Origin: a virus
Virus record (IMG/VR): IMGVR_UViG_3300018041_000054
Coordinates: 1 to 26,124 of that record
DNA: 26,124 bases
Reading direction: 5' to 3' (one strand)
The position numbers and the translations under genes were made by a program. A model generated the notes under the pieces. It was not told the origin of the DNA. It ran no database searches and worked only from the letters and a program-made list of their open reading frames with translations. The stretch's first letter is position 1. Each line of letters opens with the position of its first letter. Below are positions 4,319 through 23,798 of the stretch, one piece after another.

Positions 4319-4327
4319 GTGTCTAAT

Positions 4328-4350: not shown

Positions 4351-4361
4351 GTGAGGAGAAA

Positions 4362-4547
4362 ATGGAAATATCATTAAACAACACCCTAGAAGAAGAACTA
4401 AGAGTAATGCTTGTTGATAAAAATAATGAATGTGCCGCTCTAAGAGCTCATATTGAATTATTGGAAAAAGCAGTAGCAGAAGAGCAAGAGCAAAAATATA
4501 GATTGCTTGTTGAGAATGCTGATCTTAAAAAGTTAATTAAAACTTAG
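4362..4547 (+). CDS. Small acidic coiled-coil protein, function unknown
   Basis: A 61-residue protein with a good ribosome binding site (GAGGAG, then AAA, then ATG) and its own sigma70-type promoter at 4290-4318, so it is very likely real. After a short head, most of its length is one amphipathic helix with heptad spacing of Leu/Ile (LEEELRVMLVDKNNECAALR, then HIELLEKAVAEEQEQ and LLVENADLKKLI), so it probably forms a coiled coil. There is no membrane segment, signal or known motif. It lies alone on the plus strand inside a leftward late operon, and its last four bases overlap the end of the lysozyme-like gene. I do not recognise a family. A small early protein that binds a host or phage partner is possible, but nothing in the sequence proves it. 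Confidence 0.75.
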   Translation: MEISLNNTLEEELRVMLVDKNNECAALRAHIELLEKAVAEEQEQKYRLLVENADLKKLIKT

Positions 4548-5194
4548 TAAATAGGGTAATTCGGATTATCTGGTAGATCGCCTGGTTCTACAGGTTGTCC
4601 AGTCACTGGGTCATCATTAATGAATTTTTTAGCCTCTAATTCTGCTAAGGCTTCTTTTTTATATTTTTTTAATTTCGCTGTTAATTGGGCCCAAGTCAAA
4701 CTGGAGCCTTCACTTGGTTTATAATCAAAATTTACAAAGTCTGGTGTTGTGAATAATTCTGCTTCAAATCTTCTTCTATCAGCATATTCTTTTTTATACT
4801 GCGGTGGAGTATTATCATTTATAGGGCCTTTCCTCCATCTTTGAATCAAGCCGGGTATTCTTTCGTAAAATTCTTTATTAAGTTCTCTTACTATTGTGCT
4901 TTTTGCAAAATTCTTTGGTCCTATATGCATTGCCAAACTTACTAGAGAAATGAATTGAAAATCACTTATTTTGACCTTGATTAATTTTTTCACAGCAACT
5001 GATGCCTCCTCTGCCTGTGATATAATTGTCATATTAGTTCCAACTGGGCCTAGACCGTTAGAAAAATCAACAAGTTTTGTTCCTTTTTTGTCTACTAAAA
5101 TAATACTTGGGCCATCTATAATTGGTTCTATGCCTTCTTTTAAAAGTCCCTCAACTATGTCTTTAAATAATTTTATATTTGTATTACTTGCCAT
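4544..5194 (-). CDS. Detached lysozyme-like (GH24-type) baseplate protein, catalytic region altered
   Basis: The middle of this 216-residue protein looks like the C-terminal half of phage lysozymes. FQFISLVSLAMHIGPKNFAK (80-98) corresponds to the 'FdALVSFaFNvG.gnFk.STLL' block, and QRW (118-120) to the 'F.rW' block. ADRRRFEAELFTTPDF (138-153) corresponds to the 'GL..RR.aE..LF' tail. An EG pair (15-16) sits where the family has its catalytic Glu, and D35 may match the second acidic residue. The usual TIGYGHT segment is replaced by LVDFSNGLGP, so normal catalysis is doubtful. T4 gp5 carries its lysozyme domain inside the spike; here it is a separate gene joined to gp5 by a TAATG stop/start overlap. 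The C-terminal 60 residues are charged and then Pro/Asp-rich. It may sit on the hub or serve in structure only. The lysozyme relation is from motif reading; activity is unknown. Confidence 0.6.
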   Translation of the reverse strand: MASNTNIKLFKDIVEGLLKEGIEPIIDGPSIILVDKKGTKLVDFSNGLGPVGTNMTIISQAEEASVAVKKLIKVKISDFQFISLVSLAMHIGPKNFAKSTIVRELNKEFYERIPGLIQRWRKGPINDNTPPQYKKEYADRRRFEAELFTTPDFVNFDYKPSEGSSLTWAQLTAKLKKYKKEALAELEAKKFINDDPVTGQPVEPGDLPDNPNYPIY

Positions 5195-7389
5195 TATCCA
5201 ATTCCTTTTTTAGCATCTTTAACAATATTTTGTAATGTGTCTACAGAAACTTCATTTTGTAATGTATTAGATAGATTACTAAGATCTTTTAAACCACCGC
5301 CTGGAAGACCTGCTTTAGCAAAAACTCCTCCTATTGCCCCGTCTACTTTGCCTTTTAATTCTGATAATGCATTAAGTTTCCCACTTGCAATATTTTCTAA
5401 ATCTTGAAACTCCAAAGGAAGACCATCAAAACCAAATCCCATTGCTGAAAATCTTGCTTCTAATTCTGTGAGTATTTTAGATTGTCCTATAATTTTTTGT
5501 GCAAATGCATTAGTTGTAGGGAATCTCAAAGGCGGTAATAATTTAGTTAGCATATCACTATAATTAGAAAATCCTTGCAGACTTTGTAAGTATTTCATAC
5601 CAGGTATATTAAAGTTACTTAATTTGTCTTTAAGAGGGCCTCCAAACTTGTCTCCCAGTCCACTGATTTTATCTGTTATACCACCAAGTTTATCTGATAT
5701 TCCTGAAACACCTTTAGCAAGATCCTTGGCCTTAGATGCCGCCTTGCTTTTTTCTATGGTTAATAAACTTGCTTCAATTGCCTGTTTATACCCTTCAGGA
5801 GAATTGGCATCTGCTACCGGCTGTGTCGCAGGGTCTATGTCCGCTTCAGTATCTTCCACCATACCTTCACTGCTATGTGTCATAAGGTCTGGCATGTCGT
5901 GTCCGTCCCAAGGTTCAGCAGTTACAAGGACACCAACTAAAGAATCTAATTCTGTGGGGCCGCCTGGACGTTCACCGTTTTCAGGTAATTTTTGTTCGCT
6001 GTCTCTGTCATATTCTGGTTGATCTTTAGGTTGATCTACATGTGTTTGTACTTCTAATTCAGGTGCTGTCTGTGCCTTTACAGGAATAATAGGAGCCGCA
6101 CCAGGACCACTGTTTAATAGTACTGTGAGACCTTGTACTGCTGTCGCCACTTCACTTTTAAATGTAGCACCTAAAAGACTGCTCATATACATTTGTCCCT
6201 GTGTGCCCACAGAGATTCCTCCTACTCCAACATCTAAATCATATTTTAGCCCTGACTGCCTGATCATGCCTGCCGCATTTATATCAAAGTCGCCGTCTTT
6301 GGATGTGAGTTTTGTTCCTGTACCAGCATGTGCTGTAAATTCACCTACACTCTCTAATCTTATATGTCCGCCGTATCCAAGAGGACCACCTGGTAAAGGT
6401 ATTCCTTTTTTAGGTATACCAACATTTTTATCCCCAAGTGTGTCTCCTGCGGCTTTTATTTTTACGTCGCCACCTGCCTCTATTTTTATATCTTTATCTG
6501 CACGTAGGTTAAAATCTCCTTTAGTTCTTACATTAAAAGATCTTTCACCGTATAAATTTATAGACCCGTCTGCACCCAATTCAACCCAGGCTCTACCGCT
6601 TTTGTTAATGATATAAACTGTGCCAGTTGTATCGTCTAATAATAACTGATTACCACCGCCCGTTCTTAATCTTATATTTCTACTGTTAAGATTGTCGTCC
6701 ATTATAAACTGGTGACCAGTGTGTCTATGACCGTCATTTTTGGTGTCTTTAGGACCGGGTGTTAAAATACCAAATACTTCACTTGGTGATTCTCTTTTTG
6801 CACCACTAGATGATGCACCTCTTATTGTGTCGTTTATGAGACCCTGTTTTGTGATTGTTTCTGCTAAATCGTCATGCACTGGCCTTAAAATATCAGTACC
6901 ATCTTCTGGCATGGGGTCAAATTTATTTTTTTCTGCTACAGGTAAGTTGTTCCCTAATGCACCGTAATTTCTGACACTACCAGGTATGCCTGGTATCATG
7001 TGATTTGCTCTATGTGGGTATAAACAACTAATAATGAAAGGATATTTCATATTGCCGTCACCAAAAGCAACAAGTACAATATTACCTTTATCGGGCGGTA
7101 CCATCCACATACCATAAGATTTTTGTGTGCCTATAAATGATTTCGTATCATTAACCTGGATTGCCGCATAATTTGTTCCACCTGCAAACGGTGAGCTCCA
7201 AATACATTCAAAGTATCCGTTTTTATCTTCTTTATTTTTTGCTAGGGAGGCGATGAATACTGTAAGTGTACCTGTTTTGGTAATGTCTGTTGTAGCCATT
7301 ACTTCGCCCAGATAAATGCCTGCTCTTTTACTAGTTCTTAGTTGTTTCCTATTAATCGGATTATTTGTTGACTGTTTACTACTATCCAT
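5194..7389 (-). CDS. 5: Baseplate hub spike gp5-like (OB fold plus beta-helix, no lysozyme domain)
   Basis: The protein (731 residues) has the order of a gp5/VgrG spike. First comes an OB-fold-type domain (about 22-125; GYFECIWSSPFAGGTNYAAI, then MWMVPPDKGNIVLVAFGDGN and YPFIISCLYP). A linker follows, then the NDGHRHTGHQFIMDD motif (218-232). Repeated short strands of the needle come next (NIRLRTGGGNQLLLDDTTG, INLYGERSFNVRTKGDFNLR, DIKIEAGGDVKIKAAGD, about 238-316, resuming near 345). In T4 a lysozyme domain stands between OB fold and needle; it is absent here and a lysozyme-like gene follows directly. After about residue 450 there is an acidic Pro-rich linker and a Gly/Lys/Leu-rich helical tail (SGISDKLGGITDKISGLGDK) that T4 gp5 lacks. 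gp5 is the membrane-piercing tip of the tail tube. It starts 9 bases after the upstream stop. Confidence 0.85.
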   Translation of the reverse strand: MDSSKQSTNNPINRKQLRTSKRAGIYLGEVMATTDITKTGTLTVFIASLAKNKEDKNGYFECIWSSPFAGGTNYAAIQVNDTKSFIGTQKSYGMWMVPPDKGNIVLVAFGDGNMKYPFIISCLYPHRANHMIPGIPGSVRNYGALGNNLPVAEKNKFDPMPEDGTDILRPVHDDLAETITKQGLINDTIRGASSSGAKRESPSEVFGILTPGPKDTKNDGHRHTGHQFIMDDNLNSRNIRLRTGGGNQLLLDDTTGTVYIINKSGRAWVELGADGSINLYGERSFNVRTKGDFNLRADKDIKIEAGGDVKIKAAGDTLGDKNVGIPKKGIPLPGGPLGYGGHIRLESVGEFTAHAGTGTKLTSKDGDFDINAAGMIRQSGLKYDLDVGVGGISVGTQGQMYMSSLLGATFKSEVATAVQGLTVLLNSGPGAAPIIPVKAQTAPELEVQTHVDQPKDQPEYDRDSEQKLPENGERPGGPTELDSLVGVLVTAEPWDGHDMPDLMTHSSEGMVEDTEADIDPATQPVADANSPEGYKQAIEASLLTIEKSKAASKAKDLAKGVSGISDKLGGITDKISGLGDKFGGPLKDKLSNFNIPGMKYLQSLQGFSNYSDMLTKLLPPLRFPTTNAFAQKIIGQSKILTELEARFSAMGFGFDGLPLEFQDLENIASGKLNALSELKGKVDGAIGGVFAKAGLPGGGLKDLSNLSNTLQNEVSVDTLQNIVKDAKKGIG

Positions 7390-7398
7390 CTATTATCT

Positions 7399-10300
7399 CT
7401 ATGACAATGGTACACCGTCAGGACCAATATTGCTATTAAGTACTTCATCTATTACACCTTCACGAGCCACGTCACCTCTTCTTTCTTCAAACTGTGTGTT
7501 AATTTCCTGTTTAATTTGTTCTAACATAGACATTTCGTATGCGTTATTTTTCTTAGCATGTAAGTCGCATGTAAATAATCCATTACTGAAATTTAAGGTT
7601 GTTTTTAAACACTGATAAACACCACTCATAGTATAATTTATCCCAGAAAAATCATATAATCCTGTATTTTGGTCTTCATCGTCTATATTAAAATCTAATT
7701 TTCTTGGACTCTCTAAAACAAGTAAAAAATCTGTGTCTGAATCATCGTAAGACATACCAAATAAATTTGTTGTTAGATGTTTTTCTGGTTTGACATTAAT
7801 ACTAGTGTTTTCGTTTATACTTCCTACTGCATCATCATATAAATTATTATTTCCTATCCACCAAGGATCTCCCCTAACAGTCATATTAATTTCTAATGTA
7901 CTTTTTGTTTTATTACTGTGAGCATCCATTAAATGAGAAAACATACTGGGTCTAAACGATCCCCTTTCTCCTGGAGCATTTGTAGTTTTATCGCCGGGTT
8001 CTACTGATTTAACCGCAGTTTTATTTCTAACATTTGCTAATACAACATTTTTAGCAATTTGTTCATCTCGTATAGCATCTTGATCAGACCCGTCACCCTC
8101 TAAACCTTTAATAAGTTCAGAAGAATACAAAAAGTCTATATACCCCTTGTCATTATAGGAAAGGTCATCATCAAATTCGTCACCATCAGTGGGAGACCCC
8201 TCCTGAGGTGCTGTTACTTTTTTAACAAGTTCGTTACTTGCTAATGCAGAACTTATCTGTTCATCTGCTAAACTTTCTGCTAATTGTTGAGCTTTTGTGC
8301 CGTTAATGTCGTTTTCAATTTCTTTAATTTCTGCATCAGTGAACCCAACATATTCACCAAACTGTCCTAAAATATTACTAAATTCATACCCTTTTCTTTG
8401 CTCATCAAATTTGTTTTTTAAATCAGTAAGACCTGCTAATATACCTTGCTTTTTAGATTCTTTCTTTTGTTTTTCTACAACAGGAGCCTTATCTTGAACA
8501 TTTTCAGAGGCTTCGTCCTCAGTTAGTGATGTTGCTGTAGCCATTGCGGCTTGATCTGCAAAACTTCCCTCTCCGTAATAAGGAGATGTAAGAACAAATG
8601 CCTCATCAAAACGTAAATTTAAATCTATAACTTGATCGTTTTTACCTGTAAACATATAATAATATTCTTTGTATATTTTAAGATCATTAATTCGTTTCTT
8701 TACGTTTTCCAATTGTAAATTTTGACCAGCATTAAGTTCATTCATAGAAACGCCTACGTCTGTACGGCTTTCTCTTGTAAGCACAGGTTCAAATATAAAA
8801 ATTCTTTTATATTCATTGCGTTTTGTATCAAGTTTATTATAATCTATAATTACTTTTGTATTAATTTTATACCAACTAATAAAAGCCTGATCTAATTCAA
8901 CACTACTTCTTGGATCATTTGGATCTGTCATTCTGGTTGCTTTTTTAAATAGATCTTCACTTAGTGATAAAATTGTTGCTAAAATATCTTCAAAACTTTC
9001 TTTTTCAGGAAAATTAATTATTACCCCTTGTGTACGAGGAATAGCCAAAGCGCCTGTGGTCTCCGGATTTAAAAAAACGCTGGTTGGATTCGACTCTAAT
9101 TCTAATGATGGTCCGTCTCCTGTGTCATCTGTAATTTGCTGATTTTCTTCTTCATCGCCTCCAACAGTAAATGTTCCTCCTGGAAATCTTTGAGCAAATT
9201 CTTCTTTAAGTGCTATACTATGAAATAATTTGTCTTGTAATAAATGTTCATCGCCTTCATATTCATCGCTTGTAACTTGAACCTCTTTGTGAACACCGTC
9301 TATAGTTGGTGTCCTACTAGCAGAATTTTGTATTAAATTATCTACATTTATTATAACTTCATCTGCTACAGTTCCATCCTTTTCTGCATTTTCTTTAAGT
9401 TTTGCATTCCATACTGATTGCAAACTTCCATCACCGTCGTTTAGTAATGTTCTTAATGTTGTACCTGTGATTTTTAATTGTTTGGGTATTCTGTAGTTTT
9501 GGTCAAATAATGCTATGTCATTATTTGGTGTTGCTGTAAAATCATATATACCTCCTTCCGGTGTAATTTCCATAGTATATGTTACAGCACCTAGTTGAAA
9601 AAAGAAAGGGCCTTTTATAACAATAGGTGAGCCACCACCGTCTTCATTAGAGTTCGCATCTTGTCCTACATATCCTTTGAATTCTATTTCTAAAATTAAA
9701 GGCAACTCCGTCGCTTCATATCCACAAAAAGATTTTGTTGCCGAAAGTCTGTCTAATAATGTTACTGCGCCTGCTTCTGTTAATGTAAATTTAACCTGAG
9801 CCGCTTTATCTGGGAAATTTAATATACTGAGATTATCTATATTGATATCCGTACTTCCAGTTTCTGCAATAATTACTATATCTCTGGGATCAGGTGTGGT
9901 ACGTTTTACATCAAATTCCTCTCTGCCATATTCGTTTTCTCGCTCTTGTTGTGATTTTTGTCTTTCTATTAAATTATTTTGTTCGATTGCCGCGGCATCT
10001 TTCTTCTTCATGAATAATCTAAGTTTGTATGTTGATACATCAAAATTATCTAAAATATTGCCGGCTACAGGATGATCAAGGTATAGTGAATCCCTAAAGG
10101 TCTTACTTGCGTCGGTGGGGTCAAGACCTAATTTTTTAAGTGTTTCGTCAGCGATATTACTAATCGGGCCTTCTTTTCTTTGTTCAAATAGTCTATCTAA
10201 TTCTGCACGTTCTTCTGTGGTAAGTAGACCATTTCCTACAAGGTCCAGTTTATTTCCATCGTATGTTATAGTCTCATCGCCCTTACCCAGAGCTTGTTCA

Positions 10301-10476
10301 TCAGCAGTAGTCTTTCTTTTGCCTATATTGCCTTTTATTCTATTATCATTTTGTATAATTTGATCATAATAATTTGTGAAGTCACCTAGTGTGCCCTTTT
10401 GTGCAATCTCGGTTAAATTAAATAAGTTTGTGGTTAATCCATATGGCTGAAATTTAGGAGGTGTGTAATTGGACAT
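7399..10476 (-). CDS. Large baseplate hub-type structural protein (gp27-like by position)
   Basis: A 1025-residue soluble protein without signal or membrane segments. It lies between gp53 (TAATG overlap) and gp5 in one leftward operon, so it is almost certainly a baseplate part. Beta-rich segments such as LPLILEIEFKGYVGQ, FFFQLGAVTYTMEITPEGG and the C-terminal YTMSGVYQCLKTTLNFSNG with FTCDLHAKKN resemble hub and tail-tube-type domains. The hub (gp27) binds gp5 directly in T4 and is usually encoded next to the spike in contractile systems, so a gp27 role is my inference. T4 gp27 has only 391 residues; here a long charged, Asp/Glu/Lys-rich middle (about 640-860) separates the N-terminal and C-terminal domains. 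The first 170 residues are hydrophilic and rich in Asp/Lys/Thr. Sure: structural tail protein. Unsure: which one. Confidence 0.6.
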   Translation of the reverse strand: MSNYTPPKFQPYGLTTNLFNLTEIAQKGTLGDFTNYYDQIIQNDNRIKGNIGKRKTTADEQALGKGDETITYDGNKLDLVGNGLLTTEERAELDRLFEQRKEGPISNIADETLKKLGLDPTDASKTFRDSLYLDHPVAGNILDNFDVSTYKLRLFMKKKDAAAIEQNNLIERQKSQQERENEYGREEFDVKRTTPDPRDIVIIAETGSTDINIDNLSILNFPDKAAQVKFTLTEAGAVTLLDRLSATKSFCGYEATELPLILEIEFKGYVGQDANSNEDGGGSPIVIKGPFFFQLGAVTYTMEITPEGGIYDFTATPNNDIALFDQNYRIPKQLKITGTTLRTLLNDGDGSLQSVWNAKLKENAEKDGTVADEVIINVDNLIQNSASRTPTIDGVHKEVQVTSDEYEGDEHLLQDKLFHSIALKEEFAQRFPGGTFTVGGDEEENQQITDDTGDGPSLELESNPTSVFLNPETTGALAIPRTQGVIINFPEKESFEDILATILSLSEDLFKKATRMTDPNDPRSSVELDQAFISWYKINTKVIIDYNKLDTKRNEYKRIFIFEPVLTRESRTDVGVSMNELNAGQNLQLENVKKRINDLKIYKEYYYMFTGKNDQVIDLNLRFDEAFVLTSPYYGEGSFADQAAMATATSLTEDEASENVQDKAPVVEKQKKESKKQGILAGLTDLKNKFDEQRKGYEFSNILGQFGEYVGFTDAEIKEIENDINGTKAQQLAESLADEQISSALASNELVKKVTAPQEGSPTDGDEFDDDLSYNDKGYIDFLYSSELIKGLEGDGSDQDAIRDEQIAKNVVLANVRNKTAVKSVEPGDKTTNAPGERGSFRPSMFSHLMDAHSNKTKSTLEINMTVRGDPWWIGNNNLYDDAVGSINENTSINVKPEKHLTTNLFGMSYDDSDTDFLLVLESPRKLDFNIDDEDQNTGLYDFSGINYTMSGVYQCLKTTLNFSNGLFTCDLHAKKNNAYEMSMLEQIKQEINTQFEERRGDVAREGVIDEVLNSNIGPDGVPLS

Positions 10477-10778
10477 TATCTACCTCTAAATCTTAATACA
10501 ATATTCTCTGCCGGTAGTTTGATTGTTTTACCTGCTTTGAAATCTCGTATAGGGTCACGTATTTCATCTAAATTTCTCATAGCAAAAACCCACCATAGTC
10601 TAGAACTTTCGTATAATTGGTATGCTAAAAGATCAGGCCTTTCATCATATTGTTGAGGTATTACATAATCTTCATCATAAGGTGATGCTTGTATTGTAGG
10701 TAACTTATTTACATCCAAAAATTTTCCTTCCATGACTGAAAAATTTTTAATAAATGATTCGTTAGTATAAGTAGCCAT
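10476..10778 (-). CDS. 53: Baseplate wedge protein gp53-like
   Basis: A 100-residue protein with the typical gp53 pattern. The core YDERPDLLAYQLYESSRLWW (54-73) and the following VFAMRNLDEIRDP, then FKAGKTIKLP, match the 'RPDlLAydlYg...LWWvi...N.i.DP....G..l.iP' block shared by gp53 and LysM-type baseplate proteins. T4 gp53 (196 residues) bridges wedges to the hub. Here only the core is present, as is common in the short marine and Myoviridae forms. Its start codon overlaps the stop of the gp48/54-like gene (TAATG), and its own stop overlaps the start of the large hub gene in the same way, so translation of all three is probably coupled. Confidence 0.8.
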   Translation of the reverse strand: MATYTNESFIKNFSVMEGKFLDVNKLPTIQASPYDEDYVIPQQYDERPDLLAYQLYESSRLWWVFAMRNLDEIRDPIRDFKAGKTIKLPAENIVLRFRGR

Positions 10779-11650
10779 TAAATAAATCCGTCCTTATAAA
10801 GTTTACCATTTCTAAATGATTCAACATTAAATTTCTCTCTAACTTTCTTAGGTGTTAATGCTGGTACCAAGTTAATACTGATATTCATTCTAACTGGCAT
10901 GTATGTGGTTTGATCTTTACCTGCTACTTTTGTTTTTACAGGAATATAATCAACATCATCTGGTAACTGTATTGTGTAGTCTCTTAAAATTACTGGTACT
11001 TTATTAAATCCATGCTCTCCCATGTATTCAAAAAGTAATACCGGTGGGGGTGTGCCTTTTTTATCTGGTCCTGTTTGGTCACCAAAATAACTTTTTGTAA
11101 CTGTTCTTAAAAAATGAAATACTGCCAAAAGATATTGTGCATCATATATGTCATTTGCATAAAAGTCTGCTGTAACAGGTAATATAGGCGGTCTTGTTGC
11201 ACTATATGAATATATTGGATAGTTCATACCATGTAAAAGTTGCTCTGCATATTCCACGATACCTGATATAAAGATGTTTGGTGTTGTTTGCCAAACTAAG
11301 CCACCAGCACGTCTTAAAGGTTCTAATAGACCATTATTATCAGCAGAGTAAATTACATCTGCACCACCGTCTTTAGGTCTCAATCTAGCTCTCCAGTCAG
11401 ACCTTGGTACACTACCGCCTTGAGCAGACTTGTTTTGAACAAGTCCTGCATTTATGACTTGATCTGATAATTCTTGTGAGTTTAATTGCTGAGCCTGAAA
11501 AAATGTATTATCTGAATAATTTTCAATACCACCTGCTAATCCAGGCAAAAATGCATTGAGAACACTTTGTACTCTAGGGTCTAACTTACTTACAGCCTTG
11601 CCTGCTTTTTTAGTTAGATAGTTATTTACTGATTTTTCAAAAAATGACAT
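10778..11650 (-). CDS. 48: Baseplate tail-tube cap protein gp48/gp54 family
   Basis: This is the first gene of the leftward late operon, with a good ribosome binding site (GGAGA, nine bases or so before ATG) and a GATAAATA late promoter at 11676-11669. The 290 residues contain the central motif MNYPIYSYSATRPPILPVTA (140-159) followed by ANDIYDAQYLLAVFHFLRTV, typical of the gp48/gp54 family that starts the tail tube on the baseplate. FEYMGEHGFNKVPVILRDYT and YIPVKTKV...PVRMNISINLVPAL are the usual C-terminal strands. T4 has two paralogues, gp48 (364 residues) and gp54 (320). Only one is visible here, and I chose gp48 because marine T4-like phages keep gp48 next to gp53; gp54 cannot be excluded. 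Confidence 0.75.
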   Translation of the reverse strand: MSFFEKSVNNYLTKKAGKAVSKLDPRVQSVLNAFLPGLAGGIENYSDNTFFQAQQLNSQELSDQVINAGLVQNKSAQGGSVPRSDWRARLRPKDGGADVIYSADNNGLLEPLRRAGGLVWQTTPNIFISGIVEYAEQLLHGMNYPIYSYSATRPPILPVTADFYANDIYDAQYLLAVFHFLRTVTKSYFGDQTGPDKKGTPPPVLLFEYMGEHGFNKVPVILRDYTIQLPDDVDYIPVKTKVAGKDQTTYMPVRMNISINLVPALTPKKVREKFNVESFRNGKLYKDGFI

Positions 11651-11668
11651 TATAAATCTCCATGCTTA

Positions 11669-11676
11669 TATTTATC
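11669..11676 (-). promoter_or_regulatory. Late promoter octamer GATAAATA for the leftward baseplate operon
   Basis: The minus strand reads GATAAATA, 18 bases before the gp48/54 start codon. Transcription starting about seven bases downstream would leave a short leader carrying the GGAGA ribosome binding site. It is the only late promoter I see for gp48/54, gp53, the hub protein, gp5 and the lysozyme-like gene. Confidence 0.7.
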
Positions 11677-11723
11677 GTATTCATTAAAACTAGTTTTAAT
11701 CTGCCAGTTTTACTAAATACTAA

Positions 11724-11751
11724 TTGACATACACAAAAGACTGTGTATAAT
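11724..11751 (+). promoter_or_regulatory. Strong sigma70-type promoter for the gp55-gp47-gp46 block
   Basis: A perfect -35 box TTGACA (11724-11729) and a perfect -10 box TATAAT (11746-11751) have a 16-base spacer. The sequence AAAAGACTGT in the spacer is shared with the promoter at 4290-4318. It starts a rightward unit from gp55 to the GIY-YIG gene, with a leader of about 35 bases containing GAGGAG before the gp55 start. Confidence 0.8.
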
Positions 11752-11790
11752 ACTAACAATATAAATGAACGATAATTTTGAGGAGAGTTA

Positions 11791-12651
11791 ATGGCACAGC
11801 CTAAAAAAGTTAATTATCTTAATAATAGAGATATATTAAAAGAAATACACAAAAGCAAGATGTCTTTTTGCTATCTTGCAGACGAAAAATATTCTATATT
11901 TGATATCATATTAGAAGATGTCAAAAAAATCAATAGAAACAGCATAAAATTAGCCAGAGAAAACAGGGCCGCTAGGATACAATATGATGGGTATCAGGCC
12001 GCAATGGCAACACATGATGTTAAGGATTATAAAAATAAACCCAAACAAAAAGAATTTGCTGTAGACCCTAAAGAGATACCCTTAGAGGATTTAGTATTTA
12101 GGGTTATGACATATGATCATATTCCAGATGCCCCAGGCAGAAAGAAAAATCCCAAAAACGAAGCAGAAACCAAAGAAAGAGTAAACTTCCCTGCATATAA
12201 ACATTATGCTTATATAAATGATGAACTTAAAGAAGTTGCTAGAAGCCATTGGGAGGGCAGTTTAAGTAATGGGCACTTTAGTGTTTCTCATGGAACCCTA
12301 ACAAATAAATTAGGAATCATGTTTTTAAAACTAGTTGAAAGATATAGTCATAGATCTAATTGGCGTGGATATACTTATGTTGACGAAATGCGAGGACAAG
12401 CAATTCTTCAATTAGCACAAATTGGATTGCAATTTAACGAAGCAAAATCAGATAATCCATTTGCATACTATACTGCGGCGGTTAATAATAGTTTTACAAG
12501 AGTTCTTAATATGGAAAAAAGGAACCAAACAATCAGAGACGATATTTTAATAGACTCTGGACATTTACCAAGTTATGGCAGACAAATAAGGCACGAAGAA
12601 GAAATGAGAGCCATTAGAGAATCTGCACAAAATGAATCAAACCCAGAATAA
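11791..12651 (+). CDS. 55: Late-transcription sigma factor gp55, with a large internal extension
   Basis: gp55 is the T4 sigma factor that directs host RNA polymerase to late promoters. The N-terminal NYLNNRDILKEIHKSK (8-23) corresponds to T4 'NYVNNKELLQAIIDWK'. The conserved sigma core is at about 172-250: LGIMFLKLVERYSHRSNWRG, then YTYVDEMRGQAILQL and DNPFAYYTAAVNNSFTRVL, matching T4 '[20 protein letters not shown]' and '[21 protein letters not shown]'. Between these two parts lie about 145 residues absent from T4 gp55 (185 residues total). The C-terminus (RAIRESAQNESNPE) lacks the T4 'SLDFLYE' tail that binds the sliding clamp. The ribosome binding site is GAGGAG and the promoter at 11724 is host-type, as expected for a gene made before late genes. 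The window's six GATAAATA sites are its likely targets. Confidence 0.88.
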   Translation: MAQPKKVNYLNNRDILKEIHKSKMSFCYLADEKYSIFDIILEDVKKINRNSIKLARENRAARIQYDGYQAAMATHDVKDYKNKPKQKEFAVDPKEIPLEDLVFRVMTYDHIPDAPGRKKNPKNEAETKERVNFPAYKHYAYINDELKEVARSHWEGSLSNGHFSVSHGTLTNKLGIMFLKLVERYSHRSNWRGYTYVDEMRGQAILQLAQIGLQFNEAKSDNPFAYYTAAVNNSFTRVLNMEKRNQTIRDDILIDSGHLPSYGRQIRHEEEMRAIRESAQNESNPE

Positions 12652-12654
12652 TTT

Positions 12655-13671
12655 ATGAGTCAGTTGTTTAAGACAGCGGCCTGTTTTACGGACATACATT
12701 ACGGATTAAAACAGAACAGTCGTTTACACTTACAGGATTGTGAGAGATATGTTGACTGGTTTATTGCAGAAGCAAAAGCCAGAAATGCAGAAACTTGTAT
12801 ATTCCTTGGTGACTGGCATCATCACAGAGCAAGTGTTAATGTTGCTACAATGAATGCAACTATCAGAGATCTTAAAAAAATAAATGAAGCATTTGAAACT
12901 GTTTACTTTATAACAGGTAATCATGATTTATATTACAGAGAAAAACGTGATTTAAACAGTATTGAATACGCCAGAGACCTGTCTAATTTTGTAATGGTGG
13001 ACGAACATTTTGTCCAAGATGACGTTGCTATTATACCTTGGCTTGTAGGGGACGAACACAAACAAGTAGCAAAGATGGATGTCAAATATATGTTTGGACA
13101 TTTTGAATTACCTTACTTTAAAATGAATGCAATGGTAGAGATGCCAGACCACGGAGGTATAAACGACAAAATGCTGAGTGGTCCTGAATATGTGTTTAGT
13201 GGCCATTTCCATAAACGCCAATATAAAAATAATATACATTATATAGGAAATGCTTTCCCACATAATTATGCAGATGTAGGGGACGAAGAAAGAGGAGCAA
13301 TGTTTTTGACATGGGGCGAAGAACCTCAATATGTAAATTGGGAAGATTGTCCTAAGTATAGAGTATTTACATTGAAAGAACTATTGGACAACCACCAAGA
13401 TTTATTGGATGAATACACTTATGCAAGGGTAAAATTAGATATTAGTATTTCATATGAAGAAGCAAATTTTATCAGAGAAAAATTTGCAGAACAATATAAG
13501 GTTAGAGAATTACAACTTATTCCTGTAAAAGACGAAGAAGAATTTGAGGGCGGTGATATAAGTTTTGAAAGTGTTGATCAAATAGTTTTACAACAACTTG
13601 AAACAATAGAAAGCAACACGGTAGACAAACAAAAACTAATTGATATTTACAATGAGATCGAGATACAATAA
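12655..13671 (+). CDS. 47: Recombination nuclease subunit gp47 (Mre11/SbcD-type phosphoesterase)
   Basis: The 338-residue protein has all metallophosphoesterase motifs in order: FTDIHYG (D13, H15), FLGDWHHHR (D53), FITGNHDLYY (N89, H90, D91), GHFELPYF and FSGHFHKRQ. This is the nuclease partner of gp46; together they resect DNA ends for recombination-dependent replication and host DNA breakdown. The length equals T4 gp47 (339). It starts three bases after the gp55 stop without a clear Shine-Dalgarno sequence, so it likely depends on coupling. The partner gp46 is not directly next: a 39-residue ORF and a pyrophosphatase gene lie between. Confidence 0.92.
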   Translation: MSQLFKTAACFTDIHYGLKQNSRLHLQDCERYVDWFIAEAKARNAETCIFLGDWHHHRASVNVATMNATIRDLKKINEAFETVYFITGNHDLYYREKRDLNSIEYARDLSNFVMVDEHFVQDDVAIIPWLVGDEHKQVAKMDVKYMFGHFELPYFKMNAMVEMPDHGGINDKMLSGPEYVFSGHFHKRQYKNNIHYIGNAFPHNYADVGDEERGAMFLTWGEEPQYVNWEDCPKYRVFTLKELLDNHQDLLDEYTYARVKLDISISYEEANFIREKFAEQYKVRELQLIPVKDEEEFEGGDISFESVDQIVLQQLETIESNTVDKQKLIDIYNEIEIQ

Positions 13672-13673
13672 TA

Positions 13674-13793
13674 ATGGGCAAATTAAGACAATGGTTTAGA
13701 CGTTGGTTTGACAAACAAATAGAACTAAGTTTTCAACGTCAAGCAAACAAATTATTTTTAAAAGGTCAAAAGACAAAGAATGCTAAAAATTAA
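13674..13793 (+). CDS. Small basic 39-residue ORF between gp47 and ppa
   Basis: The ATG lies two bases after the gp47 stop, and the reading frame (MGKLRQWFRRWFDKQIELSF then QRQANKLFLKGQKTKNAKN) ends inside the start of the pyrophosphatase gene, overlapping it by 14 bases. The protein is short, strongly basic, and has an amphipathic Trp/Phe/Arg-rich N-terminal half. There is no known motif. It is supported by tight packing on both sides and by the fact that it fills the only gap in this operon. The last residues (AKN and stop) are encoded by the repeat that also forms the ppa and gp46 starts. It could be a real small protein or a coupling leader; I do not recognise a family. Confidence 0.55.
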   Translation: MGKLRQWFRRWFDKQIELSFQRQANKLFLKGQKTKNAKN

Positions 13794-13806
13794 AAACATA
13801 TCAGCA
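13780..13806 (+). repeat. Direct repeat copy 1 at the start of ppa
   Basis: ATGCTAAAAATTAAAAAC (13780-13797) is identical to 14291-14308, and the next nine bases match in seven (ATATCAGCA against GTTTCAGCA). Both copies hold the stop of the upstream frame (AAAAAT TAA) and the start of the downstream one. Confidence 0.9.
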
Positions 13807-14304
13807 GGTAACTTACCAGATGAAGTAAATGTTATCATTGAGATACCAGCAAATTCATCTCCTGTAAAGTATGAGATAGATAAAGAGTCTGGTGCAATGT
13901 TTGTAGATAGATTTTTATCGTCTCCTATGTTTTATCCTTGTAACTATGGATTTGTACCAGATACATTAGCAGAAGACGGTGACCCTACTGATGTATTAGT
14001 TATAACACCGCATCCACTAATACCTCATAGTGTTATTACTGTTAGGCCCGTTGGTGTATTATTAATGACAGACGAAGCAGGAAAAGACTCTAAAATATTA
14101 GCAGTTCCTACAGATAATTTATCAGAGGCGTACAGACATATTAGATGCATTGATGATGTAGAAACAACACTTAAGAATCAAATTGAGCATTTCTTTAAGT
14201 ATTACAAAGATCTAGACGATGGCAAGTGGGTGACTATTGAAGGATGGGGCGATGCCGAAGAAGCCAAGCAAGAGTTATTAAAGGATAGACATGCTAAAAA
14301 TTAA
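13780..14304 (+). CDS. ppa: Inorganic pyrophosphatase, family I, complete
   Basis: The 174 residues align over their whole length with E. coli Ppa (176 residues): IIEIPANSSPVKYEIDKESG (19-38), then FVDRFLSSPMFYPCNYGFVP (41-60), EDGDPTDVLV (65-74) and RPVGVLLMTDEAGKDSK (89-105). Active-site residues are present: E21, K30, E32, R44, Y52, Y56, D66, D68, D71, D98, D103, K105, Y142 and K143. One signature position differs: T70 where bacterial enzymes have Val, Leu or Ile. The enzyme splits pyrophosphate released by polymerases and so pulls DNA and RNA synthesis forward. It is not a T4 core gene. It stands between gp47 and gp46, overlaps the frames on both sides by 14 bases, and its first codons (MLKIKN.SA) copy those of gp46. 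A host-derived auxiliary gene is my inference; function is firm. Confidence 0.95.
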   Translation: MLKIKNISAGNLPDEVNVIIEIPANSSPVKYEIDKESGAMFVDRFLSSPMFYPCNYGFVPDTLAEDGDPTDVLVITPHPLIPHSVITVRPVGVLLMTDEAGKDSKILAVPTDNLSEAYRHIRCIDDVETTLKNQIEHFFKYYKDLDDGKWVTIEGWGDAEEAKQELLKDRHAKN

Positions 14305-14317
14305 AAACGTTTCAGCA
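14291..14317 (+). repeat. Direct repeat copy 2 at the start of gp46
   Basis: Second copy of the 27-base sequence at 13780-13806, two mismatches (first and third bases after the 18-base identical part). The offset between copies is 511 bases, which equals the ppa cassette. Confidence 0.9.
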
Positions 14318-16060
14318 AAAAACTTTATGAGTGTTGGCAACAACACACAGGCAGTTAATTTTGACAACTGCCAACTTACACTTGTATTAGGACATAACTT
14401 AGACATGGGTGGAGACGGTAGCAGAAACGGTACTGGTAAAACTACTATAATAAATGCATTAAGTTATGCACTTTATGGGGAAGCATTAACAAACATCAGA
14501 CGTGATAACCTTATAAACAAAACAAACGGTAAAGGAATGATTACTACTGTTGAATTTGAGATTCAAGATAAAAAGTACAGAATAGAAAGAGGAAGAAGAC
14601 CTAATATTTTAAAACTGTTTATAGACGGAGAGGATGTTTTAGATAATGAACAACAAGGTGATAGTAGAGAAACACAAAAAGAAATTGAAAAGATAATTGG
14701 TTTCCCTCATAATATGTTTAAGCATTTAATTGCTCTCAACACATACACAGAACCTTTCCTAAGTATGAAAGCCAATGACCAACGTGATATGATTGAACAG
14801 TTATTAGGTATAACTGAGCTTTCTAAAAAAGCAGAAGTTCTTAAAGAAAGACAAAAAGTTACTCGTGAAAGTATCAAAGAAGAAGAAATCAGAATAAATG
14901 CTGTGGAAGAAAGTAATAAAAGAATTGAAAAAAATATTAATGAGATAGAAAGTCGCAGTAGAGCCTGGGAAAAAAATAAGGATGACAAATTAATAGAGTT
15001 AGGCGAAAAAATTATTCGCATGGAACGAATAGATATTGATGCCGAATTAGAAAATCATAAATTGTTATCTACTATAAAAGAAAAAATTAATCAAAAAACT
15101 ACATTAGAAGCAGATCAGAAAAGACTGACTAATAGTGCTGATCGCAGTAAAAATAAACTGGAAGAACTTAAAAGTAATTTAACAAGAGCCAAAGAGGGTG
15201 TATGTCCTGCATGTGGGCAAGATACAGCACATTTAGAAACACATGAGGAATATACCGAAGAATTACAGGAAAAAATCACAGCAGAAAAAGAATACTATGA
15301 TGATTTAGAATTACAACTATTAAAAACATGTGGAGCAATAGATGAAATAGGTGATATTCCTGAAGCATCGGATGTATATTATAATACATTGGAAGAAGCA
15401 TTAGAACATAAACATAATCTTGTCACGATGCAGTCAAATTTAGAAACAATGGCATTAGATGTAAATCCGTACATAGAACAAATAGAAGGACTAAAAACAA
15501 CTGGTATACAAGAAATAAGTTTTGAAACAATGAATGAACTTACTCATTTACAGGAACATCAAGAGTTTTTATATAAGTTATTAACAAGTAAAGATAGTTT
15601 TATTAGAAAGAAAATAATAGATCAAAATATAGCATACTTAAATCACAGATTGGCACACTATTTGGATAAACTAGGACTTCCACATGATGTTAAATTTGCT
15701 AGTGATTTAGGTGTAGAAATTACAGAATATGGCAGGGACTTAGACTTTGATAATTTGAGCAGAGGTGAACGTAATAGACTTATACTTGGATTAAGTTGGG
15801 CATTCAGAGATATGTATGAAAGTTTAAATAGGCCTATGAATTTAATGTGTATTGACGAACTTATAGATTCAGGTATGGATACTATGGGTGTAGAAAATGC
15901 ACTTGGCATACTTAAAAAGATGCACAGGGAACAAGGCAAAAACATCATGCTCATTTCTCACAAAGAAGAACTAGTCGGACGTGTAAATAATGTTTTAACA
16001 GTCGTTAAAGAAGGCGGCTTTACAGCATATAACACGGACACTGAGTATCTTGATGGCTAA
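14291..16060 (+). CDS. 46: Recombination nuclease subunit gp46 (Rad50/SbcC-type ATPase)
   Basis: A 589-residue SMC-type ATPase, close to T4 gp46 (560). It begins with FMSVGNNTQAVNF, as in T4 'IMSVGQNG'. The Walker A loop is GSRNGTGKTT, a zinc hook CPAC (C305, C308) lies between two charged coiled-coil arms, the signature is NLSRGERNRL, Walker B is LMCIDELIDSG, and the His switch is MLISHKEEL. With gp47 it forms the end-resecting complex. A Shine-Dalgarno AAAGGA lies a few bases before the ATG, within the end of ppa. The loop between the N-terminal strand and Walker A (GHNLDMGGDG) is a little longer than in T4. Confidence 0.93.
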   Translation: MLKIKNVSAKNFMSVGNNTQAVNFDNCQLTLVLGHNLDMGGDGSRNGTGKTTIINALSYALYGEALTNIRRDNLINKTNGKGMITTVEFEIQDKKYRIERGRRPNILKLFIDGEDVLDNEQQGDSRETQKEIEKIIGFPHNMFKHLIALNTYTEPFLSMKANDQRDMIEQLLGITELSKKAEVLKERQKVTRESIKEEEIRINAVEESNKRIEKNINEIESRSRAWEKNKDDKLIELGEKIIRMERIDIDAELENHKLLSTIKEKINQKTTLEADQKRLTNSADRSKNKLEELKSNLTRAKEGVCPACGQDTAHLETHEEYTEELQEKITAEKEYYDDLELQLLKTCGAIDEIGDIPEASDVYYNTLEEALEHKHNLVTMQSNLETMALDVNPYIEQIEGLKTTGIQEISFETMNELTHLQEHQEFLYKLLTSKDSFIRKKIIDQNIAYLNHRLAHYLDKLGLPHDVKFASDLGVEITEYGRDLDFDNLSRGERNRLILGLSWAFRDMYESLNRPMNLMCIDELIDSGMDTMGVENALGILKKMHREQGKNIMLISHKEELVGRVNNVLTVVKEGGFTAYNTDTEYLDG

Positions 16061-16478
16061 TTGGCTTTACAAAAACAAAACAGTAACAACATTACCAGAC
16101 GATTGTGAGGCATTTGTATATCTAATAACGAATAACACAAATGGAAAAATGTATGTTGGTAAAAAATTAGCCAAATTCAAAACAACCAAACCTCCCTTAA
16201 AAGGTAAAAAGAACAAACGTCGTGGCACCAAAGAAAGCGATTGGCAAACTTATTGGGGTAGTAACGATCATCTCAAAGAAGACGTTGAATCATTGGGAGA
16301 AGATAAATTTACACGAGAAATTTTGTACTTTTGTTCCAGTCGAGGCATTGCAAGTTATTTAGAAGCAAAGGAACAATTTGACAGAAAAGTATTACTCACA
16401 GACGATTATTATAATGGAATTATCAATGTCAGAGTGGGCGGTTCAAAAATCCTCAAGGAAGAGCTCAAAGACATATAA
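16053..16478 (+). CDS. GIY-YIG-type endonuclease (SegE-like)
   Basis: The N-terminal part holds the GIY-YIG core in variant form: FVYLITNNTNGKMYVGKKLA, where VYL and YVG take the places of GIY and YIG. It is followed by a basic stretch (TKPPLKGKKNKRRGTKESDW), QTYWGSND, FTREILYFCSSRG and the E of SYLEAKEQF. This matches the SegE-like group common in marine T4-like phages, which may act as homing nucleases or in DNA metabolism. The frame can also be opened at a TTG at 16050, but the ATG at 16053 is the better start; it overlaps the gp46 stop by eight bases. It is the last rightward gene before the gene-free convergent gap, so any homing activity would have acted near here. Confidence 0.8.
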   Translation: MANWLYKNKTVTTLPDDCEAFVYLITNNTNGKMYVGKKLAKFKTTKPPLKGKKNKRRGTKESDWQTYWGSNDHLKEDVESLGEDKFTREILYFCSSRGIASYLEAKEQFDRKVLLTDDYYNGIINVRVGGSKILKEELKDI

Positions 16479-16889
16479 GTAGGTGTGTTAAAACGAAAGT
16501 TAAAACACAATTCACTAAGGCATACAAAGGCACAAACATAGGACTATACACCGGCCCCAACAGAGGCAAATTAAATCTGGCTCCTTGACAATCCGGCAAT
16601 GGCAACACCCGGTGCGAGATACTGGAGATGTATAGCGGCAAAGTACAAACACACGACAGACAGTATAAAAGGATGTAAGCTCTGAGAAAAAGCAACTTAC
16701 AAGTTATATAACTAAACTTACCTAGGTTATATGATTTCCGTGAGATTCGTGACGGTAGTGTATGGGGACAGAAGGCTCACTGGTTCCTAGTAGCACCCGA
16801 GGTTAAGATGGCGACGGCATCACATGATGACTTCATTCTCACCTGTATAGGTGAGTTATGGCTTCAACATACATGATAACGGTCTACTT
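16479..16889. other. Gene-free convergent gap with GC-rich, foldable segment
   Basis: No convincing gene is visible. Two parts are about half G+C (31 of 60 bases at 16561-16620 and 32 of 60 at 16741-16800), far above the flanking genes. On the plus strand, CTATACA (16544-16550) pairs with TGTATAG (16629-16635). That helix encloses CTCC/GGAG (16581-16584, 16624-16627) and CCGG/CCGG (16593-16596, 16609-16612). Further on, CTAGG (16722-16726) pairs with CCTAG (16786-16790) around CCGTGAG (16738-16744) and CTCACTGG (16776-16783). CTCACCT-GTAT-AGGTGAG (16838-16855) is a perfect hairpin. An open but startless frame of about 55 codons covers 16717-16880. A structured RNA, in either direction, or a decayed gene is possible; I cannot decide. 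Confidence 0.4.
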
Positions 16890-16917
16890 AAAAAATTCTT
16901 TCAAACAAATGAAAGAA
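16890..16917 (-). terminator. Rho-independent terminator of the leftward gp26 unit
   Basis: Read leftward, TTCTTTCA (16917-16910) pairs with TGAAAGAA (16903-16896) around a 6-base loop, followed directly by six T (16895-16890). The stem is AT-rich like the genome. It lies about 70 bases past the stop of the 65-residue gene and would stop leftward transcripts before they run into the gp46 block. Confidence 0.7.
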
Positions 16918-16951
16918 CGAAGTTTACGAAGTGATTGAATGTAGTTTGAAA

Positions 16952-16966
16952 AGGTCCGTAGGACCT
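16952..16966. other. Short hairpin AGGTCC-GTA-GGACCT
   Basis: A perfect 6-bp stem with a three-base loop, 17 bases past the end of the leftward gene. Read leftward it is followed by TTTC only, so it may be a weak first terminator or an RNA-protecting end before the stronger terminator at 16890-16917. Confidence 0.4.
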
Positions 16967-16982
16967 ATATAGAGTTTAAAGA

Positions 16983-17180
16983 TTAAAGTTGTTCTGTTGG
17001 AGATTTGCCTGCTTTTGCTTGATTATAATCATTTATAGTTTTAACTAATGAAGCTCTTTGTTTTGATGACATTTCCCATGCTTCAGACCAGGTGACAGAT
17101 CCATTACTATACACAACTAGTTCAGTTATGTTTTTCTCTATGGCGTCTGTTTCTTCGTTGAGCTTCCTAAGGTATGCCAC
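16983..17180 (-). CDS. Small protein downstream of gp26, function unknown
   Basis: A 65-residue protein (MAYLRKLNEETDAIEKNITE, then WSEAWEMSSKQRASLVKTIN and a basic tail) predicted mostly helical. It starts with GTG, only two bases after a very strong Shine-Dalgarno AGGAGG (17188-17183), a tight spacing that may limit its rate. It lies 23 bases after the gp26 stop and ends its transcription unit. In T4, genes 26 and 51 (hub assembly) are neighbours, so a hub-assembly role is possible by position, but I see no sequence proof; it is far shorter than T4 gp51 (249). Confidence 0.65.
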   Translation of the reverse strand: MAYLRKLNEETDAIEKNITELVVYSNGSVTWSEAWEMSSKQRASLVKTINDYNQAKAGKSPTEQL

Positions 17181-17203
17181 TACCTCCTCAGGCTCTGATT
17201 GAG

Positions 17204-18079
17204 CTAGGAAGCCGTGAAAAAATTTACGGGATTAAAGTTTACCTGTGCTTGGAACTCATATGGTTCTTCTTCAGTACCACATGCAGTACATCTCATGAGT
17301 ACTTCTTTGTTTACACCTATATTAGAAATCTCTGAGATAAATTCTTCTATCTGTTTTCCAACAGCACTTTCACAGTTTTCTAAAAATTCGCGAATATTAT
17401 TTGAGTCATTAACGATTATGTCATCGCTGTCTTTATCAACGGCAGGAATTGTGATAGAAGCCACACTATCCACCATTATATCAAAATTTAATTGAGAAAG
17501 TTCTATAAAATTACTATTAAATGCACGAATTCTTTCCACTTCATCATCTATGGTAGCAATTGATTGTAAACTTCTTTCACTTCTAAAGTTTGCTACTCCG
17601 GCCTTTACTGTAGTTTCATAACTAAAAGGTCTAATTTCTACTAGTAGACCTGTATCAGTATTAAATTGATATGCATCATCTAATGTACTCATAGTGGATA
17701 AAGCACCCTCTACACTGACGTTTTCAGTGACAACTTCTTCACATTTATCACAAGTGCTGGATACCTCCATATCATCACCATAAGTAGCACCCTGAATAGC
17801 AATTAGTAATGCATCTATGTCATTACTTAAAAGTTTTCTTGGTAATTTGATTGTTGGTATACAACTGCTAATTACTGTGGCAATTGCTTCACCGTTTAAT
17901 AATGCATCTGGATTTTTTAGCATTAGTTCATCCTTAGCAGTCATGGGATATACTGGTAATTCTCCAGTTTCCGACATGTCTACTACATCCGGGGTATAAA
18001 ATTTACCTTTACTGGGTAATTGTGTATATAACTTTGGCGACCTAAAATGTCCTGCTAGTGGATTGGTATTATCTGCCAT
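17204..18079 (-). CDS. 26: Baseplate hub protein gp26-like (T4 baseplate family)
   Basis: The 291-residue protein has the hallmarks of the T4 gp26 family: an N-terminal SPKLYTQLPSKGKFYTP, then YPMTAKDELMLKNPDALLNG (43-62) with VISSCIPTIK, and paired cysteines CDKC (about 110-113) and CTAC (about 268-271) that could bind a zinc ion. The family takes part in hub assembly at the centre of the baseplate. T4 gp26 has 208 residues; the added length lies between the two Cys pairs. The start has a good ribosome binding site (AGGAG, 18091-18087), and a GATAAATA late promoter is at 18144-18137. It diverges from the tape-measure candidate. Confidence 0.8.
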   Translation of the reverse strand: MADNTNPLAGHFRSPKLYTQLPSKGKFYTPDVVDMSETGELPVYPMTAKDELMLKNPDALLNGEAIATVISSCIPTIKLPRKLLSNDIDALLIAIQGATYGDDMEVSSTCDKCEEVVTENVSVEGALSTMSTLDDAYQFNTDTGLLVEIRPFSYETTVKAGVANFRSERSLQSIATIDDEVERIRAFNSNFIELSQLNFDIMVDSVASITIPAVDKDSDDIIVNDSNNIREFLENCESAVGKQIEEFISEISNIGVNKEVLMRCTACGTEEEPYEFQAQVNFNPVNFFTAS

Positions 18080-22979: not shown

Positions 22980-23798
22980 ATGTCAGAATCAAGAAGTAAA
23001 TTAGAAGAAATTCTTGAACTTCTCCTTGCTGAAGAAAACGAAAAAGCAGAAGAAATGCTTCATGAGTATGTTGTTGCAAAAGCAAGAGCAGAATATGAAA
23101 AAGTTCTAGATGAAGACGTTTCTGAAGAAGAAGCAGTTGAAGAAATTGAAGAAGCAGAAGAATCAGAAGAAGAAGCAGTTGAAGAGGCTGAAGAATCTGA
23201 AGAAGAGGCTGTTGAAGAATCAGAAGAAGCAGTCGAAGAAGAGTTCGAAGTTGATGAAGTAATTGATCAATCAAACGATTTTGAAGATGATATTCTTGCT
23301 GATGAAGAAGAAATCGAAGCAGACGAAGTCGGCGAAGAAGAAGAAAGCGAAGAAGAGGAAGAAAACGGAGACCTAGAGGACAAAGTTGACGACCTAGAAG
23401 ACGAGCTTGACGAACTTAAAGCAGAATTCGAAAAATTGTTAGCAGACGACGAAGAAGTCGAAGACGGTGAAGAAGCAGAAATGGACGCAGAAATGGACAT
23501 GGAAGACGAACTCGATTTAGAGTCAGTTGAATATGATCTTGATGAAGAAGTTGCTGAAGAAGATGAAGTTGTTGAAGAAGCAACTAAACTTCAAGATAAA
23601 GCACCTGAAGTTGCTAAAAACGAAAACCCAGACAACAAAGAATCTTCACTTACAAATGCACCTAAGAAAACATTTGTAGTTGACGGTCAAAAAGCAGGCA
23701 TCGAAAATAAAGATGGCGGCGAAGGTAGTATGGGCGACAACAAACCAGCAGATAACACACCAACAGATAACATAAACGTTGAACCTAAAAAGGCGTAA
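22980..23798 (+). CDS. Acidic prohead core (scaffold) protein, gp67/gp68-type
   Basis: A 272-residue, extremely acidic protein between portal and prohead protease, the place of gp67/gp68 in T4. The first 45 residues form a helical domain (LEEILELLLAEENEKAEEML, HEYVVAKARAEYEKVLDED) like the start of prohead-core proteins of marine T4-like phages. Residues 48-88 are four imperfect Glu-rich repeats. A coiled coil follows at about 126-152 (LEDKVDDLEDELDELKAEFE). The last 80 residues are Asn/Pro/Lys-rich and likely disordered. Core proteins fill the prohead and are cut by gp21 before packaging; the acid would be removed or balance DNA charge. The ribosome binding site is GGAGAG. The call is from composition and context; the match to gp67 or gp68 is not certain. 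Confidence 0.7.
   Translation: MSESRSKLEEILELLLAEENEKAEEMLHEYVVAKARAEYEKVLDEDVSEEEAVEEIEEAEESEEEAVEEAEESEEEAVEESEEAVEEEFEVDEVIDQSNDFEDDILADEEEIEADEVGEEEESEEEEENGDLEDKVDDLEDELDELKAEFEKLLADDEEVEDGEEAEMDAEMDMEDELDLESVEYDLDEEVAEEDEVVEEATKLQDKAPEVAKNENPDNKESSLTNAPKKTFVVDGQKAGIENKDGGEGSMGDNKPADNTPTDNINVEPKKA
23121..23243 (+). repeat. Glu-rich tandem repeat in the prohead-core gene
   Basis: Four units that begin SEEEAVEE or SEEAVEEE (14, 11, 8 and 8 residues; residues 48-61, 62-72, 73-80 and 81-88). At DNA level the units share GAAGAAGAAGCAGTTGAAGA with changes mostly at third codon positions, so the repeat is old or under protein-level selection. Confidence 0.75.

Follow-up and report, generated by a model that had tools for sequence, protein, structure and literature searches.

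A phage pyrophosphatase gene that appears to begin with the opening codons of its downstream neighbor, gp46

A pyrophosphatase gene, ppa, lying between gp47 and gp46 in 26,124 nucleotides of viral DNA (positions 1 to 26,124 of IMG/VR record IMGVR_UViG_3300018041_000054), raises the question of how a packed phage operon can take in foreign coding sequence and stay unbroken; this whole stretch is referred to here as the window. The window is part of a T4-like myovirus, with gp46 and portal proteins 53% and 54% identical, respectively, to those of PA5oct-type Pseudomonas phages and a capsid fragment, cut by the window end, that is 70% identical to theirs. One stretch of a 91.6-kb environmental contig is 99.92% identical to the window across its full length. 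Phage capture of host genes is mostly reconstructed a long time after it took place. At this locus relatives of both parents, an empty site and a second recipient are visible together, and the type of bacterial gene, the phage start codons that were taken over and the shared codons of the probable join can all be traced. The features concerned, in window coordinates, are as follows.

12655..13671, plus strand: gp47 (SbcD-like subunit; phrog_100, E 2e-64; Pfam Metallophos), the upstream flank of the insertion site
13674..13793, plus strand: orf39, a 39-aa ORF that shares its last 14 bases with the start of the next gene
13780..14304, plus strand: ppa, family I soluble inorganic pyrophosphatase, 174 aa (PF00719)
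13780..13806, plus strand: left copy of the gp46 start (ppa ATG and 8 codons), with no difference from the right copy in bases 1-18
13798..13806, plus strand: codons 7-9 of ppa (ATA TCA GCA), the likely crossover zone
14280..14285, plus strand: AAAGGA, a Shine-Dalgarno-like site in the phage-specific ppa tail, 5 bases before the gp46 ATG
14291..14317, plus strand: right copy, the native gp46 start
14291..16060, plus strand: gp46 (SbcC-like subunit; phrog_77, E 3.5e-99), the downstream flank, overlapping ppa by 14 bases
16050-16478, directly after gp46: SegE-like GIY-YIG gene, 142 aa (Pfam)

The start of ppa and the start of gp46 agree in 25 of 27 bases, with an exact stretch of 18, ATGCTAAAAATTAAAAAC, common to both, as a preliminary description of this DNA had noted. 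The repeat is real. Allowing up to three mismatches, the 27-mer is found in the window at these two places only, and the 18-mer with up to two mismatches also occurs just twice (0.01 expected). Dinucleotide-preserving shuffles of the window gave a mean of 0.00 matches to the 27-mer, and the pair arose in none of 100. With a repeat finder the copies extend to one pair of 35 bases at 86%, the sole direct repeat family in 13600-14420. The preliminary description was also correct that each copy combines the stop of the upstream frame with the next ATG: orf39 and ppa both end in AKN-stop with a 14-base overlap. Because each copy holds the stop of the upstream gene, the two AKN C-termini are the gp46-type start read in another frame. 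A coincidence or convergence, in which bacterial Ppa proteins naturally begin this way or an AT-rich start was selected in both genes, would draw on the fact that both starts are AT-rich. However, it is already disfavored by the shuffles, and the relatives of the two parents, discussed below, bear on it further.

The gp47-gp46 junction was surveyed on 93 contigs, namely the best 80 of 230 from a gp46 search, 12 from a pattern search with the gp46 start and one, L007, found through a ppa search; they are not independent, several being near-identical phages. In 75 of the contigs gp46 comes straight after gp47. Six encode ppa, five of them belonging to the window's phage and the sixth being L007, and on these six, besides the window record, the gene lies between the core phage genes gp47 and gp46. 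Every one of the six has a second copy of its local gp46 start, as compared with none of the 87 contigs without ppa (at most six mismatches in 27 bases, looked for over 4 kb if the locus extends so far), which again argues against coincidence. The distances across the slot take the values -1, 2 or 3, 102 or 108, 510 and 622 bases and no others in 141 locus rows, many of them contigs fetched twice. Apart from orf39 and ppa, no other gene was found in the slot on the 93 contigs; as the ppa search relied on six exact 8-residue patterns, a diverged ppa outside the 93 could be missed. The orf39 gene, which encodes a basic 39-aa protein with no match in Pfam or PHROG, is present or absent independently (it is found on 17 of 93 contigs, 12 without ppa and five with it), and every row with orf39 only has an orf39 match and an open frame ending inside the gp46 start.

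The best and a clean empty site is that of L019, whose gp47 and gp46 proteins are 99% identical to those of the window. Bases 1-5035 of L019 correspond to window 8777-13814 at 97.4% and bases 5001-8084 to window 14291-17374 at 98.8%. These matching segments have 35 bases of L019 in common, the repeat being present once there and twice in the window. The preliminary description had anticipated an empty site with a single copy in related phages, and L019, at 97-99% DNA identity, provides it; rather than all relatives carrying ppa at this place, 87 of 93 contigs have the one-copy arrangement without it. An assembly artefact was rejected as the source of the window's junction since five other contigs with different IMG/VR numbers carry it at >99.9% identity. 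Alternatively, ppa might be ancestral between gp47 and gp46, and recombination between the repeats might have removed it from most relatives. The same one-copy site would remain after a deletion of this kind, and L019 is so close to the window that a recent loss there is conceivable. However, ppa is absent from 87 of the 93 contigs, and the orf39 tail of L019 is unlike that of the window and nearer to that of L022. Along with the divergence values from L007 given below, this makes ancestral loss an improbable history of the locus.

The composition of the ppa start was examined against 31 ppa genes of the bacterial family that includes Ca. Ruthia, one with its start cut off and 30 with complete starts, by aligning phage and bacterial starts on their SAG or TAG residues. 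Except for one, the complete starts (29 of 30) read M[QL]N[SNT]L[KR]PV[ST]AG[NK], mostly MQNSLKPVSAG, while the phage Ppa begins MLKIKNISAG. That bacterial Ppa proteins might naturally start like the phage protein, an outcome the preliminary description had allowed for, is therefore not what the family shows, and the differing starts count against coincidence. Codons 1-6 of ppa equal gp46 in 18 of 18 bases versus an average of 5.8 of 18 for the bacterial genes (n=30), codons 7-9 are common to the gp46 and bacterial parents, and from codon 10 onward ppa is of the bacterial type (Ca. Ruthia family). Judged by these codons, ppa opens with the gp46 start (ATG and about five codons), passes through a stretch that fits both parents and goes on with codons of the bacterial type. 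A second, intact gp46 start follows ppa, giving the site two copies. A gp46 origin, proposed in the preliminary description for the N-terminus, is thus required only for codons 1-5 or 1-6, codons 7-9 being shared by both parents.

The exception among the 30 is L179, which begins MQNSTNITAG, has the same length as the phage start and matches it in 20 of 27 bases, including AAC ATA at codons 6-7. A reading by coincidence can point to this resemblance. If the donor resembled L179 at this point, the join could be placed a few codons upstream, and part of the likeness (codons 6-7 and 9) could be bacterial. Compared with gp46 of the L044 or L012 type, 16 of the 30 bacterial ppa genes have 9 or 10 identical bases through codons 7-9; the gp46 allele of the window itself gives shorter runs, 6 bases for 17 of the 30 genes and never more than 8. 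A run of 9-10 bases therefore needs a gp46 of the L044 or L012 type. Codons 7-9 would be a natural place for a short-homology join, perhaps made in an L044-type phage. Codon 7 of ppa is ATA in the phage and GTT or GTA in the gp46 starts compared, which requires a later change or another donor.

The right-hand join of ppa is not explained. The C-terminus of the phage Ppa, ELLKDRHAKN, differs from bacterial ones, e.g. ELLESFASYKK, and no convincing source for it was found among orf39 and gp47 tails: against seven orf39 tails and 11 gp47 tails the best likeness was weak, and of 2000 simple shuffles 96 and 308, respectively, did as well. The AAAGGA site carried by this tail is absent at the same distance before gp46 in the three empty sites inspected (L019, L014 and L044).

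The bacterial part of ppa points to a gammaproteobacterial donor. The best four among the matches listed for genome contigs, at 78-79% identity, come from a Bathymodiolus symbiont, a Ca. Ruthia genome and two gammaproteobacterial MAGs. A Ppa match is found in 49 of 83 genomes of the Ca. Ruthia family, three in pieces only, the best being 81-82% identical; full-length proteins of the family are 68-82% identical to the phage Ppa, most of them 74-82%. Outside the family identity reaches 66% at most among the matches listed (369 genomes sampled from the class, 398 from the phylum), and by the same comparison a SAR11 or other alphaproteobacterial origin is not supported. A 92-row tree unites the family with both phage Ppa proteins in one clade (support 100/99), the phage pair being placed above L179 and its twin L093 at weak forks (87/54 and 82/78) on a long stem of 0.4 changes per site. 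Because the forks are weak and the stem is long, what the tree allows is a donor within or adjacent to the gammaproteobacterial family that includes Ca. Ruthia and the Bathymodiolus symbionts, its exact place being weakly supported. We take this family to be the SUP05 clade. The preliminary description had suggested SAR11 and other marine bacteria for the Ppa tree; a SAR11-like donor is not what the clade shows. Named phage records with a Ppa match numbered 10 (three Salmonella-named, three bacteriophage without a host name, two Acinetobacter, one Escherichia and one Moraxella), all below 60% identity and not counted as close relatives. tRNA genes, sought as a clue to the host, were not found in the window, the 91.6-kb contig or five other loci. 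A wider scan of viral contigs gave six further Ppa-like loci, L169-L174, at 34-59% identity; the start of L169 resembles enterobacterial Ppa.

In L007, the second carrier, orf39 is missing and ppa comes straight after gp47, which suggests that ppa moved after its capture. This arrangement also qualifies the scheme of the preliminary description, in which gp47, orf39 and gp46 were once contiguous and ppa entered at the gp46 start with duplication of the junction: insertion at that start is well supported by L019 and the one-copy sites, but orf39 is not needed. Between the window and L007, dS is 1.36 for the late sigma factor gene and 1.11 for gp47, as compared with 0.097 for ppa; within gp46 it is 0.38 over the first 33 codons and 2.5 over the next 142. 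By these values nearly the same ppa occupies the same place in a diverged phage, far less diverged than its neighbors. Since ppa has a dS of 0.097 where gp47 has one of 1.1, the shared copy is younger than the split of the phages, which, as does the bacterial type of the gene, speaks against an ancestral ppa.

L007 is a mosaic. Its bases 4288-4907 are identical to L014, bases 4908-5018 are L044-like (differing from L044 at 10 of 111 positions, all of them before the last 26), and ppa of the window type follows base 5018. The first 18 bases of its ppa, ATGTTACAAATTAAAAAC, equal the gp46 allele of L044, the two starts agreeing in 26 of 27 bases, and its own gp46 begins ATGCTAAAAATTAAG. The first codons of the L007 ppa are hence those of another gp46 allele. 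Its left and right repeats differ in allele type, which a move of ppa by crossover inside the repeat would predict. As gp46 starts are conserved, the right breakpoint in the L007 gp46 is not sharp. With a ppa start that follows a different gp46 allele in a second phage, coincidence or convergence is barely credible as an account of the repeat. The evidence for transfer comes from this one contig, and for that reason repeated movement of ppa is something we infer.

Under a different scenario, a dedicated mobile element, either a transposon or a SegE-type homing endonuclease by gp46, placed ppa and made the duplication. A GIY-YIG SegE-like gene does lie directly after gp46 (16050-16478), and metabolic cassettes adjoin endonucleases in cyanophages, according to the passages available from one study (PMC3037559). 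However, the duplicated stretch is the coding start of gp46, fused in frame, and SegE-like genes are present also in relatives without ppa. Moreover, the 511 bases from copy to copy are filled by ppa, the only other ORF of at least 35 aa there being a 41-aa frame on the minus strand, and the repeat finder gave no inverted repeats of at least 12 bases in 13600-14420. Given these points, a dedicated element is very unlikely to have been involved. A transposon or integron cassette was not found at this site, which has no recombinase gene within the 511 bases and none of those inverted repeats. The protein encoded at 16050-16478 is a SegE-type GIY-YIG endonuclease by Pfam, while its best PHROG is labeled NAD synthetase; in many relatives its best homologue is on the opposite strand, about 1-2 kb or more past gp46.

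In the history we favor, capture fused ppa to the gp46 start, and the gene later moved between phages, probably by crossover within that start. The first join may have occurred through short-homology recombination at the shared V-S-A codons. Later moves would then have used homologous recombination, on the left between the donor's ppa start and the recipient's gp46 start and on the right in gp46. As both ends of ppa resemble the gp46 start, the gene would take over an existing translation signal and overlap its neighbors by 14 bases, with gp46 left intact. Taking all steps jointly, from the joining of a bacterial ppa at the gp47-gp46 junction through its later moves to the predicted role in pyrophosphate cleavage described below, we consider this the best explanation and a highly likely one. 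Such a history would offer a concrete, testable rule for how a foreign gene enters a packed phage operon unbroken and how its spread could follow.

A broader reading, which we put forward tentatively and rate at somewhat less than an even chance, is that ppa is a start-codon-guided mobile gene, for which the opening codons of gp46 provide a single site of homology in all phages of the group. Each move could then swap the first codons of ppa for those of the recipient's gp46 allele, and ppa would land in frame with its translation signal while the neighboring gene stayed intact. The recombination proteins encoded by the flanking gp46 and gp47 could themselves drive the moves, and the shared gp46 start may let ppa slot into other phages.

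The phage Ppa looks like an ordinary enzyme with its catalytic residues and fold intact. It matches PF00719 with an E-value of 3e-55 and 186.7 bits (cut-off 23.5), while no PHROG family matches it at E 0.001. The catalytic and metal-binding positions, E20, K29, E31, R43, Y51, Y55, D65, D67, D70, D97, D102, K104, Y141 and K142 in E. coli numbering, are all invariant (14 of 14, +1 numbering) in 18 aligned proteins, consistent with the statement in the preliminary description that the active-site residues are kept. The predicted model has a pLDDT of 88 and a pTM of 0.86, with lower quality at its ends (75 for the first ten residues and 51 for the last block), and its closest solved structures are bacterial Ppa, including that of E. 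coli (2eip_B, TM 0.96, rmsd 0.9 A). The predicted enzyme would split the pyrophosphate released by phage DNA and RNA synthesis, pulling synthesis forward and returning phosphate; coupled translation and a push on DNA synthesis by the putative Ppa activity are both plausible. Alternatively, ppa could be a passenger without benefit or serve something other than DNA synthesis, such as phosphate salvage or the diversion of pyrophosphate from a membrane H+-pyrophosphatase of the host. Its presence in only 6 of the 93 contigs fits such a role, as does the occurrence in the donor family (the family of G002) of the membrane H+-pyrophosphatase in 68 of 83 genomes versus the soluble Ppa in 49 of 83, numbers in which absences of either enzyme are uncertain because the completeness of the genomes is not given. 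A mere passenger is less easily reconciled with the retention of all catalytic residues, with a dN of 0.14-0.17 between phage ppa and six bacterial genes (dS being saturated or near saturation) or with a dN/dS of about 0.12 between the two phage copies, the latter estimated from only 5 and 10 changes. On balance, we find a role outside DNA synthesis, or none, possible though not the likelier outcome. If the host is a bacterium of this kind, a soluble Ppa made during infection would either supplement the membrane enzyme or compete with it for pyrophosphate. One bacterial family has two routes for handling pyrophosphate.

Several known systems share features with this locus. PeSL elements, reportedly described by Arbiol 2010 as mobile regulatory cassettes of T4-type phages, are said to consist of promoter-stem-loop motifs sitting between genes; here the handle is instead coding sequence and supplies a start codon, and there is no intergenic room at the borders of ppa because the genes overlap by 14 bases on both sides. 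As in the present case, PeSL repeats are short, stand at gene borders and serve as recombination handles. The cassettes are mentioned for T4-type phages in another paper (PMC4503421). In T4-like cyanophages, too, metabolic genes of host origin are gained and lost between core genes; those cassettes, in the passages seen, lie by endonucleases and at varied places (PMC3037559), whereas ppa stands alone between two copies of the gp46 start. In lambdoid mosaicism phages recombine, as here, between diverged but similar sequences, but that work concerns lambda rather than a T4-like phage, and its abstract does not mention gene capture at a translation start (PMC2327257).

Phage-borne ppa itself has precedents. 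It has been noted in viromes, in the part of the source available (PMC3877843), and reported from soil phages, where two examples were expressed and split pyrophosphate (PMC10987575). The soil-phage proteins are, like the one here, family I or II Ppa with an intact active site; the passages available are silent on how those genes were joined, while here the donor family, the gp46 fusion and the empty site are resolved, and, unlike the soil-phage examples, the window's ppa is in a T4-like phage adjoining gp46 and gp47 (PMC10987575). Viruses of SUP05 carry other metabolic genes, and the string "pyrophosph" is absent from the main text of the paper describing them (PMC4164917). In the literature searched, whose coverage leaves out most subscription-journal papers, no description of this ppa junction or of a start-fused capture was found.

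Further open frames were noted elsewhere. Between the portal gene and the capsid region, the window encodes at 22980-23798 a 272-aa protein made up mostly of glutamate-rich stretches. Outside the window, on the L002 contig (G827), the baseplate genes are followed at 29876-47953 by one uninterrupted frame of 6025 aa, and further on a run of about ten ORFs, most of 397-504 aa, occupies 63244-75775.
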